Assembly: GCA_029865825.1 (NCBI GenBank) | Contig: JARXAQ010000316.1 | Location: 1-41,589, forward strand | Length of the DNA stretch: 41,589 bases | Origin: Rhizobium sp. | GTDB taxonomy: Bacteria > Pseudomonadota > Alphaproteobacteria > Rhizobiales > Rhizobiaceae | Reading direction: 5' to 3' | Part shown: positions 25,918-36,199 of the stretch, in pieces | Position numbering within the stretch: the first letter of the stretch is position 1 | Layout of the letters: every line of letters starts with the position of its first letter | Notes under the pieces: generated by a model | Databases searched by the model: none | Seen by the model: only the letters and a program-made list of their open reading frames with translations | Told to the model about the DNA's origin: nothing | Translations under genes and position numbers: made by a program

Positions 25918-26314
25918 GTAACCGGTGTTCTTCCCCCACATTGTCTGCAGGCTTCTGATCTGGGATCGAAGCTCCATGGATGAGAGACAAGGAGTTTCTC
26001 CATGGAGAGTACGTTGGAGGTTCTCACAGCGCGACGGAGTAGGCGTGAGGCACATCGCCAATGGCCTGACGATGTCAAGGCGCGGATCGTTTCGGAGAGC
26101 TTGCGACCGGGCGTAACGGTGAATGAAGTCGCGGGGCGCTACGGGCTGAAGGCCAACCACCTGTCGTCGTGGCGCACGCTGGCGCGGCAGGGCAAGCTGG
26201 TGTTGCCTGAGCCTGAGGACGCAGTCGAGTTTGCGGCAGTGGTTGTCGGGACGCCCGCGCCGGAGTCGCCGACGGTCAAAGCCGTCTCCCGGACCGAGAT
26301 CGTGGTTGGTGGAG
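25918..26314 (+). mobile_element. IS66-family left-end fragment with 5' part of tnpA (ORF start 26002)
   Basis: MESTLEVLTARRSRREAHRQWPDDVKARIVSESLRPGVTVNEVAGRYGLKANHLSSWRTLARQGKLVLPEPED...TEIVVGGV is IS66 TnpA-like; truncated exactly where the IS3 terminal repeat begins. Confidence 0.8.
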
Positions 26315-26341
26315 TGCACCCCGTTTCACCGGACAAGTCGG

Positions 26342-27169
26342 CTAGTTTGATTTAGCCCTGATGAACTGCCGAGGGGAAGCCATCTTGAGCGCGGAATGAG
26401 GATGGATTTCATTGTAGTCCTCGATCGATCCGTCGATGAGCCGGAGCGCCGTTTCGGCGTCCGGTAGTGCTGCGATGCGGATATAGTCCCCCTTCAGGGT
26501 TTTGACGAAGGCTTCCGACATGCCGTTCGACTGCGGACTGGCCACCGGCGTGAAGCAAGGCGTCAGATTGAGCGCCTGGGCAAAGAGCCTCGTGTCCCTC
26601 GCGGTGTAAGTCGAGCCATTGTCCGAGAGATGCTCGATTGCGTGCGGGGCTCTGGTCGCCGCGAAGCGCTTCTCGACTGCCTCCAGCATCATGTCGCGCA
26701 CGTCAGAGCCGGAGATGCCCGCATTGGCGACCGCCGTCCAGGCGATGATCTCCCGGTCGAAAGCATCGATGATGAAGGCGAGACGAATGACCTCGCCGTT
26801 CCAGCAGGTGAACTCCAGCCCATCCGAGCACCAGCGCAAGTTTGAGCGCATCACCATGACCTTGCCGTCATGGATACGGCCCTTGCGAACTGCCGTATGC
26901 TTCTCCAGCAGCATGGCGTGGTTGCCCATGATGCGATGAACCCGTTTGGCGTTGACGATAGGCTTATCGGCGGCTCGCCTCTCGCGATTGAGGAGCGCGG
27001 CGATCCGCCGATAGCCATAGGTTGGCCTTTGATCCACCAGCCTGCGGATGATGGGCAGAAGCTCTGCATCCTCGGCCTTGTGATAGGACCCGCGCGGCTT
27101 TGATCTGCCTTTCAGCCGCTCGACGAGGTTGGAACGGGATACGCCCAGCGTGTCTGCGACGGACTTCAT
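26342..27169 (-). CDS. IS3-family transposase OrfB (DDE integrase core)
   Basis: TYGYRRIAALLNRERRA..., rve core LRWCSDGLEFTCWNGEVIRLAFIIDAFDREIIAW...LSDNGSTYTARDTRLFAQ...SPQSNGMSEAFVKTLKGDY. Confidence 0.95.
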   Translation of the reverse strand: MKSVADTLGVSRSNLVERLKGRSKPRGSYHKAEDAELLPIIRRLVDQRPTYGYRRIAALLNRERRAADKPIVNAKRVHRIMGNHAMLLEKHTAVRKGRIHDGKVMVMRSNLRWCSDGLEFTCWNGEVIRLAFIIDAFDREIIAWTAVANAGISGSDVRDMMLEAVEKRFAATRAPHAIEHLSDNGSTYTARDTRLFAQALNLTPCFTPVASPQSNGMSEAFVKTLKGDYIRIAALPDAETALRLIDGSIEDYNEIHPHSALKMASPRQFIRAKSN

Positions 27170-27555
27170 CGGGAACCGTCCTTCGGCAACAAGATGGGCC
27201 GCGATATCCGTTTTTTTGAGTCTGCTTTGGACAAGGCTTCGCGGAGGATTTCGACCTCCATCGTCTTGCGGCCGAGCATGCGCTCCAGCTCGCGAACGCG
27301 GTCCTCCAGCTTTTTAACTTCCGAATTGCCGACCACCGGCTCGTCAGAATCCACGGCTGCAGCACCTCCCTCACTCAAGAGCCTGCGCCACCGGTAAAGC
27401 AAATTGGGCGCAACGCCATGGCGGCGAGCAGCCGAAGACACCGTCTCGCCAGGTTCAAAACTCTGCTCAATGATTGTCAGCTTCTGCTCGGTTGTCCACC
27501 GTCTGCGGCGGACATCACCCGTCAGCAATTCAACGTGTCGATACTCGTTAGACAT
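27166..27555 (-). CDS. IS3-family transposase OrfA (HTH)
   Basis: RRRWTTEQKLTIIEQSFEPGETVSSAARRHGVAPNLLYRWRRLL plus leucine-zipper-like C-terminus; overlaps orfB start by 4 nt. Confidence 0.94.
   Translation of the reverse strand: MSNEYRHVELLTGDVRRRRWTTEQKLTIIEQSFEPGETVSSAARRHGVAPNLLYRWRRLLSEGGAAAVDSDEPVVGNSEVKKLEDRVRELERMLGRKTMEVEILREALSKADSKKRISRPILLPKDGSR
27211..27217 (-). promoter_or_regulatory. A7 slippery site for programmed -1 frameshift (OrfAB fusion)
   Basis: Minus strand TCAAAAAAACGG; shifting -1 gives KKTDIAAHLVAEGRFPMKSVADTLG, in frame with OrfB. Confidence 0.8.
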
Positions 27556-27623
27556 AAGCCTGTCCTCAAGCCTGTGCTTGAGCCTTTCTGCTTATGCCGA
27601 CTGTCCGGTCGAAATGGGGGGCA

Positions 27624-27799
27624 GTTCAAATACATCATCGTAGGCATCGAGGAGGCGCAGGAATTCGCCACGCAGTGGCTATGGACCTACAACAATGAAC
27701 GGCCCAATATGGGGATCGGCGGCATAACACCCGCACAGGAACTGAGAATGGCCGCGTGAATTCTACTGCCGAGCCCCGTTAAAAACGGGGGGATTACCC
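27624..27799 (+). mobile_element. 3' fragment of a different IS3-family element (OrfB C-terminus and right end)
   Basis: FKYIIVGIEEAQEFATQWLWTYNNERPNMGIGGITPAQELRMAA*, followed by CCCCGTTAAAAACGGGGGG. Confidence 0.8.
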
Positions 27800-27961: not shown

Positions 27962-28043
27962 GACTGTGTGACGATTTTGCTAAGGCTGTTAGGGCGCGAA
28001 AAAAGGCTGGCCCTGCCATTTGCACAGCCAAAATGAGGGAACA

Positions 28044-29675
28044 ATGACAACGGACATCGACAGCCATGCCCCCGGGGGGCATGGGCTAAATCTTCATCGT
28101 ACGATTACGTGGAAACACGCCTTCTGGCTGGCAGCAGGCGCACCGGCTCTAGTCTTGTTTACACTTGGCCCTGTGTCGTCGACAGTTGGCCCGCTCTCGC
28201 CAGTGGTCTGGATCGTCTCGGCGTGCTGCGCTCTGCTTCAGGCCTTCGCTTACGCCGAGATTTCGGGGATGTTTCCCAACAAGTCGGGGGGCGCTTCAGT
28301 ATTCGGTGCGGTCGCCTGGGTGCGCTACGGCAAAATTCTCGGGCCGATCTCGGTTTGGGTCAACTGGCTGGCTTGGTCGCCCGTTATTGCCATAGGTGTC
28401 AGCTTGGCGGGTTATTACCTCATCGACATACTGTTTGCCGCGGGAGCCCCCGCGCGCCAATGGGAGATCACTCTTGTCAACCTCGGGTTTTTGCAGGAGG
28501 GTCTGCGCTTGCGCATCGACGCCGTCTATCTCGCGGCCTGGCTGATGGTGCTGATCGTGTTCGGCATACAGCATCGCGGCATTTTGCGAGCAGCTCGCGC
28601 TCAGATCGCGCTTGCTGTCGTGGCGCTCATCCCGCTGTTTGCTATTGCCCTCAGTCCGTTGTTAACCGATTCCTTCGACTGGTCAAACCTGTTCCCTCTC
28701 TTGCCGCTATTGCCCTCGTCTGATGGTCAAGTGCACTACGCGCAATGGGACGGTCTGGGGGTCTCCATCTTGCTCGCAGCGTTTTTTGGTGCTTCCTACG
28801 CGACCTACCCATTCGAGACGGCAGTCTGTTACACGCGAGAATTTCGCGACCCCGGCAAGGATACCTATCGGGCGATCATGTCGGCGGGAATATTGGCACT
28901 CTTGGTCTTCTCGATCGTGCCGCTCGCGTTTCAGGGTGTGTTGGGCGTGGAGGCACTGCTGGCCCCCGGCATCATTAGCGGCACCGAGATCGGATCGGCG
29001 ATGGCCACGATGGTCGGTGGTGGCGTCATTACCAAGACCATCATTGTCGGCTTTCTGATCATGACGCTTCTATTCAGCGTGTCGACAGCAATGGCCGGGT
29101 CATCCCGCACGCTTTATCAAGGCGGTGTCGACGGTTGGCTGCCGCGCTATCTCGGACGCGTAAATAACAAAGGCGCGCCTGTGGCGGCTATGATGACCGA
29201 TCTCGTGTTCAACATGCTGCTCTTGTTGCTGAACGACATCATTTTCCTGCTCGTTGTCTCCAACGTTACTTACTTGTTTTTCGTTTTTATGAACCTGCAG
29301 TCGGGCTGGTTGCACCGTATCGACCGGCCGACGACACCCCGCCCATATCGCGCGCCTGATTGGCTTATTGCAGTCGGTGCGATGCTTGGTTTCGTCAACA
29401 TGTTCCTCCTGGGGGCGGGGGGAGCATTCTGGGCGCCCAGTGCGCTGGCAGTGGGCGTCTTCGCCTCGCTGATGATCTTGCCGGTGTTCTGGTGGCGGCA
29501 CTATGTCCAGGATGGAGGCGTGTTTCCAAATCAGATGGAAGACGACATGCACCTTCGGGCATCCGGCATGGATCAGCCGCAAACACGCGCCGGAATGTTG
29601 CCTTACGCGGCATTGCTGGGAGGAGGTATGATGGCAGTGGCGGGGTATTGGTTCGTCGCTTCGCATGTATCTTAA
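28044..29675 (+). CDS. APC family amino acid/amine permease
   Basis: Multiple TM segments; APC-type N-terminus LHRTITWKHAFWLAAGAPALVLFTLGPVSSTVGPLSPVVWIVSACCALLQAFAYAEISGMFPNKSGGASVFGA. Confidence 0.92.
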   Translation: MTTDIDSHAPGGHGLNLHRTITWKHAFWLAAGAPALVLFTLGPVSSTVGPLSPVVWIVSACCALLQAFAYAEISGMFPNKSGGASVFGAVAWVRYGKILGPISVWVNWLAWSPVIAIGVSLAGYYLIDILFAAGAPARQWEITLVNLGFLQEGLRLRIDAVYLAAWLMVLIVFGIQHRGILRAARAQIALAVVALIPLFAIALSPLLTDSFDWSNLFPLLPLLPSSDGQVHYAQWDGLGVSILLAAFFGASYATYPFETAVCYTREFRDPGKDTYRAIMSAGILALLVFSIVPLAFQGVLGVEALLAPGIISGTEIGSAMATMVGGGVITKTIIVGFLIMTLLFSVSTAMAGSSRTLYQGGVDGWLPRYLGRVNNKGAPVAAMMTDLVFNMLLLLLNDIIFLLVVSNVTYLFFVFMNLQSGWLHRIDRPTTPRPYRAPDWLIAVGAMLGFVNMFLLGAGGAFWAPSALAVGVFASLMILPVFWWRHYVQDGGVFPNQMEDDMHLRASGMDQPQTRAGMLPYAALLGGGMMAVAGYWFVASHVS

Positions 29676-29735: not shown

Positions 29736-30368
29736 ATGAGAACTTTTGTGCTCTGCGGAAGCCCCCGCCGAAACGGAAATTCGGCGATATTGGCCCAAGA
29801 GGTGGTCAGGGGTCTTGAGGAAGAAGGTCATGACGTTCAGATGGAATATGCATCGGACGTGCTCGGCGGATTTCTCAAGGATTGCCGTACCTGCCGCGAT
29901 GCCCATGGCGAGTGCTCGATCGAGGATAATTTCGGCCAGGCGTTCCTCGACAAGATGCTGCCTGCTACGGGCTTCATTATTGCCACGCCAGTCTATTGGT
30001 ATGGCATGTCGGGGCTTGCCAAGACCTTCTTCGACCGCATGTTTTGCTACGTCGCGGCATCGCATCCGAAGTCCGAAAGCGTGGTGTCCGGCCTGCTCGG
30101 AAAGCGCATCGGGCTAGTACTGTCCTCTGAGGAGACCTTCCCCAGTGTTGCTGCGGGGATCGTCCATCAGATGCAGGAATATGCACGCTACACTCGGTCG
30201 ACTTTTGTTGGCGTTGTGCACGGCTATGGCAATGCCCGCGGCGACGTCCATCGCGACCCCGGCGCGCCTACTGCCGATGCATTAGAATTCGGACGCAACT
30301 TCTACCAGCGCCACGCCACCGACTACCAAATTGACACGCCACGCTCTGGCCGCGTCTGGCCGATTTGA
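29736..30368 (+). CDS. Flavodoxin-like NAD(P)H-dependent FMN reductase / oxidoreductase
   Basis: MRTFVLCGSPRRNGNSAILAQEVVRGLEEEGHDVQ; TPVYWYGMSGLAKTFFDRM. Confidence 0.92.
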   Translation: MRTFVLCGSPRRNGNSAILAQEVVRGLEEEGHDVQMEYASDVLGGFLKDCRTCRDAHGECSIEDNFGQAFLDKMLPATGFIIATPVYWYGMSGLAKTFFDRMFCYVAASHPKSESVVSGLLGKRIGLVLSSEETFPSVAAGIVHQMQEYARYTRSTFVGVVHGYGNARGDVHRDPGAPTADALEFGRNFYQRHATDYQIDTPRSGRVWPI

Positions 30369-30414
30369 CCGTAATTCACCCGCTGTTCAAAGACCAAACA
30401 ACCGAGGAACTGTT

Positions 30415-31791
30415 ATGTCTGCCAATGATTGGATTGAAAAGAAGAAAGAACTCGTCGCTGCGGGCGTCGAATACTGCTTTGCTAGTTACGTGGACGTGCA
30501 TGGCATCTCCAAGGCCAAGTGCGTTCCCATCAGCCATCTGGAATCCATGGGGAAAGGATCGGAATTGTTCACGGTCGGGGCGCTCGATGGCATGGGGCTT
30601 GTCGGGCCGCAGTTCGACGAGTGTGCCGCTGTCCCTGACATTGAGACAGCAACGATCCTGCCGTGGGATAAGCGCTACGTCTGGTTCGCATCCGACCTGC
30701 ACTATCACGGTGAACCCTACGCCAATTGCAGCCGTGTCATCCTGAAGAAGGCGACGCAGTCCGCGTATGAGCGCGGGCTTCGCTTCAACGTGGGCATCGA
30801 GCCGGAATTCTATGTCTACAGGAAAGGCGACAACCGCCTCGAAACATTCCAGGAAGAAGGTTTCCTTGGGGGAACGCCGGCATACGACCTGTACCAGACC
30901 TCCCTGGCCGAGCCGCTGCTCGACAAGATCGCACGCTATATTGATGAGATGGGCTGGGGCTTGTATTCTTTTGATCAGGAAGGCGGCCACGGGCAGTTCG
31001 AATTTGACTTCGACTATGCAGACGCGCTGACCACTGCCGACCGCCAGACCTTCTTTAGGTTCATGCTAAAGAATGTCGCCCGCTCTCTCGGCGCTGTCGC
31101 GACATTCATGCCCAAGCCATTCAGCAACGACTTCCGCTCGGGTGCGCACCACAACATGTCGCTCGAATACATACGCACCGGAGAAAACATTTTCGACGTC
31201 AAGAAGCGATCGCAAGGCGAGCTGGCCAAGGAAAGGGGCATTCGGGCGACCGACGAGACGCTACATTTCATCGGCGGCCTGCTCGACCATGCTGATGCGC
31301 TGTGCGCCATCACCTGCCCGACATTTAACTCATACAAGGGTTTGATCGCTCGGGGTGATATGCCCGACATGTCATGGGCACCGGTACTGCAGGCCTATGG
31401 CAGTAACAACCGTTCGGCAATGCTACGCCTGCCGATGAACCGGCCCTGCATAGAAAACAGAACGCCAGACATGAGTGCAAACTTCTACCTGTCCACCGCG
31501 TTCAGCCTACATGCCGGGTTGGACGGTCTCGATCGCAGGCTGGATCCTGGTGAACCAGTCAACGACAACCTTTATCTGCAGCGTGCCGCTAACGAAGGCA
31601 AGCCCGGTACCAGCCGCCTACCGCGAACACTTTTGGAGGCCGTCGAGGCCCTCGAAAAGAGCGATCTTGCCAAGCGTACGATGGGCACCGAGTTCGTCAG
31701 CCTGTTCAGCCAGCAAAAGAAGCAGGAATGGGAGACCGCCTTTTATCACGTGAGCCCGTACGAGCGGGAACGCCAGCTAACCTTCGTATGA
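30415..31791 (+). CDS. glnT: Type III glutamine synthetase-like ligase (GlnT family)
   Basis: VAAGVEYCFASYVDVHGISKAKCVPISHL; FNVGIEPEFYVYR; EGGHGQFEFDFDYADALTTADRQTFFRFMLKNVARSLGAVATFMPKPF; NNRSAMLRLP. Confidence 0.85.
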   Translation: MSANDWIEKKKELVAAGVEYCFASYVDVHGISKAKCVPISHLESMGKGSELFTVGALDGMGLVGPQFDECAAVPDIETATILPWDKRYVWFASDLHYHGEPYANCSRVILKKATQSAYERGLRFNVGIEPEFYVYRKGDNRLETFQEEGFLGGTPAYDLYQTSLAEPLLDKIARYIDEMGWGLYSFDQEGGHGQFEFDFDYADALTTADRQTFFRFMLKNVARSLGAVATFMPKPFSNDFRSGAHHNMSLEYIRTGENIFDVKKRSQGELAKERGIRATDETLHFIGGLLDHADALCAITCPTFNSYKGLIARGDMPDMSWAPVLQAYGSNNRSAMLRLPMNRPCIENRTPDMSANFYLSTAFSLHAGLDGLDRRLDPGEPVNDNLYLQRAANEGKPGTSRLPRTLLEAVEALEKSDLAKRTMGTEFVSLFSQQKKQEWETAFYHVSPYERERQLTFV

Positions 31792-31937: not shown

Positions 31938-33191
31938 ATGCACGCCATGGAAAGATTTCGGCGCGAAGCCAATGCAACTGCACTGCAGAAGATGTTTGAA
32001 GCCGACCCGGTGGTCGAGGATGTACGTACCGCGCTGGACGCCGTTCCGGGGTTTGCGAAAAACCTAATCCTAACATCGGGGCCGACCATGGAGTGGGTTG
32101 GGTATGATGGCGGCCAGCGCGCTGCGATAATTGGCGCGGCCTTGTTTGAGGGGTTAGCCGACAATGCAGAACAAGCTAACGATAGGATCGCGGCCGGCGA
32201 CATTCGCGTCCTCGGCGCGCAGGAGTTAGGTTGCGTCGGCTCGGTTGCCGGCGTCTACACCGCCTCGATGCCAGTGCTTGTCGTGCGCAACCGCCGCCAT
32301 GGCAATGTAGCCTTCTGCAATTTCTACGAAGGCACCAATCCGCGCCGGCTGAACTACGGCATCTATGACGAGGCTGTGCGCGAGCAACTGCTCTATGTGA
32401 ACAACGTCGTGGCGCCCGTCATCGGCGAGGCGATCCGGCGGAGCGGTGGAATTGCGATGAAGCCGTTGATGAAGCGTGCGCTTAACATGGGCGACGAGTT
32501 GCACAGCCGCAACAATGCTGCTGGCCTGTTGCTGATGCGCGAACTGCTTCCGCACTTCCTAGCCGGCCAAGGAACTGACCCAGCGCCAACCGAAAAGGCG
32601 ATCATGGCCTTGACCGAAGACCAGTATTTTTTCCTGCGGTTTTCTATGGCTGCAGCTAAGGTCACGGCTGACGCCGCCCATGGCGTCAGATATTCGAGCC
32701 TGGTAACCTCGATGAGCTTCAACTGCCGAGAGTTCGCCATCCGTGTCAGTGGCCTCGGTTCGCACTGGTACAAGGGTCCGCACCCGCAGGTCGCGGCTAA
32801 GCTTTTTGATGGCTTTGACCCGTCCGACATCACCTGGATCGGGGGAGAAAGCATTATAACCGAGACCATCGGCCTCGGAGGTTTCGCGCAGGCAGGTGCC
32901 CCCACGCTACAGTCCTATCAAGGCGGCTCTGTCCAGTCGCTGATCGACAAAAACCTTGAGATGTACCAGATCACGCTTGGTGAGAATCCGGACTAGCTCA
33001 TCGCCAGCCTAGGCTATCGAGGAACACCAACCGGCATCGATATCTTCAAGGTGTTCGAGACTGGAGTGACTCCGGTGATGGATATCGGCATTGCTGGAAA
33101 AGGTGGTGGCCAGATAGGCGCGGGCACTGTCAGGGCGGAAAAGGCTTGCTTCGACAGCGCGGTCGATGCGTACATCAGCCAGTATTCTTGA
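31938..33191 (+). pseudogene. DUF1116 / AllG (YlbE)-like protein, interrupted by an in-frame TAG at 32994-32996
   Basis: ORF to 32996 has DUF1116 features (VGYDGGQRAAIIGAALFEGLA, GVRYSSLVTSMSFNCREFAIRVSG, TLQSYQGGS); after TAG the same frame reads LIASLGYRGTPTGIDIFKVFETGVTPVMDIGIAGKGGGQIGAGTVRAEKACFDSAVDAYISQYS*. Confidence 0.8.
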
Positions 33192-33214
33192 CATCTTGTG
33201 GGGCTGTCACCCAT

Positions 33215-33227
33215 CCCCCCCCCCCCC
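33215..33227 (+). repeat. Poly-C homopolymer (13 C)
   Basis: Read directly: CCAT-CCCCCCCCCCCCC-GCATC. Confidence 0.9.
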
Positions 33228-33639: not shown

Positions 33640-34062
33640 TTGCCGTATTCACTTCATGCGTAACGCGCTGGCCATGCCGGGAAGAGCGGACGGCGCGTCG
33701 TCTCCGCCTTCATCGCCACAGTCTTCGCCCCGGACACCCCGGAGGTGGCAAGCACCGAATGGCGCAATGTCGCCGACCAGGTCAGGCTGAAGGCGCCGAA
33801 ACTCGCCACGTTGATGGAGAGCGCAGAACAGGATGTGCTTGCCTACATGACCTTTCCCATGCAGCACTGGGCAAAGCTTCATTCGACAAATCCGATCGAG
33901 CGTTTCAACGGCGAGATCAAGCGACGCACCGAGGTCGTCTGCATCCTTCTCATTGACGATGCTATCGTTAGGCTCTTCGGCACCTTGCTCCTGGAGCAAA
34001 ATGATGAACGGGCCGTTCAACGCTCCAGACATTGACCCTTAAGACCATCGCTGCAATGAGCT
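33640..34062 (+). pseudogene. IS256-family (Mutator) transposase C-terminal fragment with frameshifts
   Basis: CRIHFMRNALA... / ASTEWRNVADQVRLKAPKLATLMESAEQDVLAYMTFPMQHWAKLHSTNPIERFNGEIKRRTEVV / LTLKTIAAMS. Confidence 0.88.
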
Positions 34063-34259
34063 GATGATCCGCGCAACAGCCTGCCAGCAGCAAGCTGATC
34101 CGTTCCGGCTTCGTCCGGAAAGCACGGCGATCGCCGAAGCAACATCGCGCCATGGGACATCATCCGCGATCGGCCCTAACAACCCCAAAACAACTAAATT
34201 TCCAGAGAATTGAAGCTGGAAAGCCATTTCACTTGGTCGGTTGACCCTTGAAAAAGACG

Positions 34260-35639: not shown

Positions 35640-35936
35640 TCATTCGCCGAATAGTAATACCCCATAGTCTGTTGCGCCGTGCAGGATGTGTATAATGACC
35701 ACTTTGGCAGACTCAATGCGGTAGAAGATCAGGTAGTTTCCGTGAACACGTCGACGGATTCCATGATGTTCATAGCGAGGGACGAGGGCGAAGCTATTGG
35801 GGTTACTGATAAGATCTTCACATCGGCTCCGCAGCTCTCGAATGAATGAAAGAGCGCGCCGTGGATTGTGCTCGGCAATATAATCCGCGATCTGCTCAAG
35901 ATCGCCTTCGGCCTCCTTGGTGAATTCAAGGATCAT
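35640..35936 (-). CDS. parE: Type II toxin-antitoxin system RelE/ParE family toxin
   Basis: LEFTKEAEGDLEQIADYIAEHNPRRALSFIRELRSRCEDLISNPNSFALVPRYEHHGIRRRVHGNYLIFYRI. Confidence 0.93.
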   Translation of the reverse strand: MILEFTKEAEGDLEQIADYIAEHNPRRALSFIRELRSRCEDLISNPNSFALVPRYEHHGIRRRVHGNYLIFYRIESAKVVIIHILHGATDYGVLLFGE

Positions 35937-36199
35937 GCGGAATTTTCGGCTTTGTCAGCCAGTGCACGGTACTTAGCGTCAAGACGGTTGAACACATCGC
36001 TGGCCGACTTGGTTCGACCGGCGTCCGCATCAGAGATACCGCGCATGATTGAAGCATCCAGAGCGGCCAGTCGCGTTTCCCGGTCCTGAACCAGTCGCAC
36101 GCCTTCGCGCAGGACTTCGCTTTTCGAGCCGTAGCGACCTGTATCCACGAGCTGCTGAATATAGCTTTCGAGCTGCTTTCCCAAATCGGCGCTGATCAT
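35933..36199 (-). CDS. parD: Type II toxin-antitoxin system ParD family antitoxin
   Basis: LGKQLESYIQQLVDTGRYGSKSEVLREGVRLVQDRE; overlaps toxin start by 4 nt. Confidence 0.93.
   Translation of the reverse strand: MISADLGKQLESYIQQLVDTGRYGSKSEVLREGVRLVQDRETRLAALDASIMRGISDADAGRTKSASDVFNRLDAKYRALADKAENSA

Follow-up and report, generated by a model that had tools for sequence, protein, structure and literature searches.

The window analysed here, 41,589 nucleotides long, is a whole contig (C181) of a draft genome (4.13 Mb in 368 contigs, 76.6% complete) assigned to Rhizobiaceae by its plasmid matches, and contains on its forward strand a gene of the DUF1116 family (PF06545) interrupted by a single in-frame amber codon. 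The frame opens with an ATG at 31938, encodes 352 residues (31938–32993) before a TAG at 32994–32996 that occupies the position of residue 353, and continues on the same strand through 64 open codons to a TGA at 33189–33191 (32997–33191 with the stop), giving a read-through length of 417 residues. The first-pass annotation had already proposed that an amber codon splits a DUF1116 gene at this place and that the same frame stays open for 64 codons; both observations hold, and the tail sequence that it quoted is exact. In a Pfam profile search the pre-stop part scores 229.1 bits against a curated cut-off of 27, covering profile positions 1–215, and it contains the complete Pfam domain proper (residues 89–305). 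The post-stop tail alone matches no Pfam family because the PF06545 domain stops at residue 305; the tail aligns to homologues without gaps. The pre-stop protein is 49–66% identical to its homologues, and the gene contains no lesion besides the TAG. An unusual C homopolymer lies at 33211–33227, about 15–40 bases downstream of the gene; long C runs are common sites of sequencing errors.

Operon context and flanking mobile DNA

Three genes lie upstream of the DUF1116 gene on the same strand. The first encodes an APC-type permease (28020–29675, with a putative start codon), which scores 711 bits with the TMAO permease model NF053774 and so passes its threshold of 690. It is followed by a gene for an NADPH-dependent FMN reductase-like protein (29736–30368, PF03358), of which a 62% identical homologue adjoins a DUF1116 gene in another locus (L035), and by a gene for a type III-like glutamine-synthetase-like ligase (30331–31791, PF00120, 272 bits), which scores 432.8 bits against TIGR03105 and thus falls under the cut-off of that model (469.6). 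Such a permease beside a gene for a type III glutamine-synthetase-like protein is suggestive of the use of a methylated amine or a related amine.

To the left of the operon, on the reverse strand, lies an IS3-type insertion element (26308–27630, rve and HTH_Tnp_1 domains) with copies 94–96% identical in many congeners. To the right of the DUF1116 gene, megablast matches to annotated IS256 transposases reveal an IS256-family transposase remnant (33641–34169, no strand assigned) that is repeated across the genus. Further on, at 35640–36199, lies a toxin gene of the ParE type, probably paired with ParD, and similar DNA occurs in several congeners. A search of 35 congeneric genomes found the DUF1116 gene itself in none of them. 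Because the gene is missing from these congeners and insertion sequences flank it, the DUF1116 operon would be accessory, probably mobile DNA, in which gene loss is tolerated.

Conservation of the tail and expected effect of the truncation

The position of the TAG was assessed in two sets of relatives: 34 proteins mostly of the same order, two of them from Rhodococcus plasmids, and 80 proteins from a wide named genome collection. The second set was retrieved with an alignment query, whereas a single truncated-protein query of genome contigs retrieved none. In the alignments, the column of the TAG is read through in 34/34 and 80/80 relatives, so that none of these 114 (the two sets share a few loci) stops there and the TAG, like that of a pseudogene, cuts the frame short where every intact homologue reads on. 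Relatives whose protein ends naturally at the TAG column were looked for and found in neither set, and a chance open extension after the TAG is ruled out by the homology of the tail in the 114 relatives. The alignment to DUF1116 homologues that the first-pass annotation had called for thus bears out its reading of the tail as the conserved DUF1116 C-terminus. Its suggestion that the TAG replaces one residue, possibly a Tyr codon, also fits the 80 close relatives, in which the column is mostly aromatic (Tyr 52 times and Phe 26 times, against Leu twice); more distant relatives have mainly Trp, Leu, Phe or Ile. Proteins of the close clade terminate 61–79 residues past the TAG column and contain the motifs GTPTGID...GQIGAG.

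Mean identity of the interrupted gene to the 80 relatives is 65% in the tail and 58% in the body, and its tail/body identity ratio of 1.12 compares with a mean of 1.09 (sd 0.05) in intact genes. At the level of sequence, the tail is conserved like that of intact homologues. The interrupted gene departs from the consensus at 3 of the 71 columns conserved at 99% or more, the highest count of any row, and forms the longest end branch within its own nine-row subclade of the tree. Together, these departures and the long branch give a weak hint of relaxed selection.

A structure model of the read-through sequence, built from a 31-row alignment (mean pLDDT 88, pTM 0.90), agrees with the Enterococcus faecalis DUF1116 protein of PDB 3CLQ with a TM score of 0.92–0.93. 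Residue 353 falls within a strand of this model (346–355), and the elements past the stop comprise three strands (361–368, 380–387 and 392–399) and a helix (403–416). Clade-invariant residues of the tail include, among others, R361, G362, P364 and G390–G396. Because the tail holds these strands, the last helix and many invariant residues, the 352-residue product is predicted from the model to be unstable or inactive.

Reading of TAG in the host genome and origin of the interruption

The host genome encodes RF1 (499.8 bits) and has a second release-factor match (274 bits) that fits RF2. TAG terminates 16% of its ORFs of at least 300 codons, and coding-like extensions are not more frequent after TAG-ended ORFs of this genome than after others. 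The first-pass annotation had advised a check for amber suppressor tRNAs; the search returned no tRNA with a CTA anticodon among the 33 tRNA genes of the 77%-complete assembly, from which tRNA-Tyr, tRNA-Trp and several other tRNAs are also missing. Four further pattern matches turned out not to be tRNAs. A change in the genetic code was rejected on RF1, stop usage and the tRNAs, and pyrrolysine was rejected since the only synthetase-like match in the assembly is below threshold (PylS, 21 bits; cut-off 178). In all, the 77%-complete assembly yielded neither a CTA tRNA nor a PylS match above the cut-off nor a loss of RF1 that would point to amber recoding, suppression or pyrrolysine.

Other stop-interrupted genes were sought with a dicodon coding score in 1.07 Mb of the host genome, a scan of limited sensitivity that gave 22 loose candidates, 3 of them with TAG. 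None of the nine non-TAG candidates checked had a Pfam domain spanning the stop, and a single-codon version of the scan, with criteria that were too strict, gave no candidates. The sequence scanned held exactly one further clear case of a gene broken by a single stop: that for a methyl-accepting chemotaxis protein on the reverse strand of contig C173 (L185:1000–2880), with a TAG at 2278–2280 and an intact relative in Rhizobium rosettiformans (79% identity). Under host codon usage, TAG accounts for 52–54% of single-base nonsense changes. The probability that both interrupted genes carry TAG by chance is therefore about 0.28, and for this reason the coincidence is no evidence for suppression.

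We favour, with a probability slightly above one half (about 0.53), the reading that the TAG is a true nonsense mutation of very recent date, in an accessory operon that is flanked by insertion sequences and dispensable. RF1 would terminate translation at the TAG and leave a 352-residue fragment, which, missing the last helix and the final part of the central sheet, would be inactive; as the mutation would be very recent, further decay would be yet to follow. This reading is supported by the continuation of all relatives past the site, the conserved tail, the presence of RF1 and the use of TAG as an ordinary stop, and also by the loss of the last structural elements of the model, the accessory nature of the gene, its slightly higher number of departures at conserved columns, its long end branch in the tree and the presence of a second broken gene, the chemoreceptor. 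The single lesion and the fragmented draft argue against it, and a base error or a base from a minority strain fits the data nearly as well as a nonsense allele. An artefact of sequencing, assembly or strain mixture, with a sense codon in the organism and a full 417-residue enzyme being made, is thus a serious contender that may quite possibly be the correct one. It would account for a single lesion in front of a fully conserved tail, and both the fragmented, incomplete state of the draft and the C homopolymer just past the gene speak for it. However, the assembly does not appear to be filled with errors, as only the chemoreceptor emerged as a further clear interruption in the 1.07 Mb covered by the scan, limited as its sensitivity is.

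Nonsense mutation and sequencing error, two of the three causes that the first-pass annotation had offered, therefore stand, while functional readthrough, the third, has gained no positive support. A suppressor tRNA or leaky termination that yields a useful full-length enzyme could explain the conserved tail and the second TAG-interrupted gene, and tRNA-Tyr and tRNA-Trp belong to the roughly one quarter of the genome that the assembly lacks. Yet RF1 is present, no CTA anticodon occurs among the 33 tRNAs, PylS stays far under its cut-off, TAG-ended ORFs have no excess of coding-like extensions and two TAGs out of two are expected by chance often enough; moreover, no relative has a stop at the site, which is thus not a conserved recoding signal. 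Readthrough is for these reasons very improbable, and it is just as hard to credit that an amber suppressor tRNA encoded in the unassembled quarter usefully reads both the DUF1116 gene and the chemoreceptor gene of C173. Least probable of all is that the truncated protein is itself functional: its Pfam domain proper is complete, but it would have to do without the invariant residues R361, G362, P364 and G390–G396 and without a tail that all relatives keep and that completes the fold in the model.

A ligase-associated clade bearing the name AllG

In E. coli, oxamic transcarbamylase consists of AllF, AllG and AllH together (PMC11326118). The interrupted gene belongs to the same Pfam family as AllG (YlbE) and its E. 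coli paralogue YahG, matches YahG at 38% identity across 97% of the length, and its read-through product is similar in length to AllG (417 and 419 residues, respectively). Unlike AllG, however, it sits in a distinct clade, the glutamine-synthetase-linked and AllG-type sets being split in the tree with 100/100 support (YahG lies on a long branch and its placement is unsure), and it carries the TAG. Neither the interrupted gene nor its 80 closest relatives adjoin AllF/FdrA, AllH or carbamate kinase genes: fdrA/allF is absent from the operon and from 80/80 clade loci, AllH or carbamate kinase occurs near the clade genes in 0/80 loci, and the host genome, 77% complete, gives no match to allH (PF11392). 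As a control, FdrA adjoins the DUF1116 gene in 13 of the 13 more distant AllG-type loci (L010–L022), those with short flanks included. The neighbour that recurs in the clade is instead a glutamine-synthetase-like ligase, found in 63–64 of the 80 loci and represented in the window by the gene at 30331–31791; some loci further encode a glutaminase, a hydrolase of the agmatinase family or a protein of the gamma-glutamyl-GABA hydrolase family. With its relatives (L064–L143), the gene belongs to a clade that ranges over Alpha- and Gammaproteobacteria, Actinomycetota, Chloroflexota and others.

The YlbE/AllG label of the first-pass annotation thus holds as a Pfam family name but probably not as a statement of function: judged by its sequence relationships and neighbours, the interrupted gene is probably not AllG, and the clade is probably not an oxamic transcarbamylase. 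As a tentative proposal, the clade might catalyse a step in the breakdown of an amine or amide following its gamma-glutamylation by the ligase. A literature search found no paper with DUF1116 in its title or abstract.

Among known systems, the Enterococcus faecalis protein of PDB 3CLQ has the same fold over the full read-through length at 34–35% identity. Closer in sequence (56–57% identity) are the DUF1116 proteins of two Rhodococcus plasmids (NC_023144 and NZ_CP009112), whose genes, unlike the host gene, are intact. As in the host locus, these genes lie near glutamine-synthetase-like ligases and an APC permease; however, the Rhodococcus glutamine-synthetase-like genes share no more than about 27% identity with that of the window, and other Rhodococcus neighbours (SDRs, glutaminase and gamma-glutamyl-GABA hydrolase family proteins) are missing from the window. 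As a nonsense-interrupted gene, the case is ordinary: like nonsense-mutated bacterial genes in general, it has one in-frame stop and intact relatives elsewhere, although in contrast to typical pseudogenes it shows no further decay yet and a draft error is possible. Its wider meaning lies in the DUF1116 family, which splits sharply: a widespread ligase-associated clade bears the Pfam name AllG, which would be misleading there, as this clade probably performs a different reaction in amine/amide catabolism.
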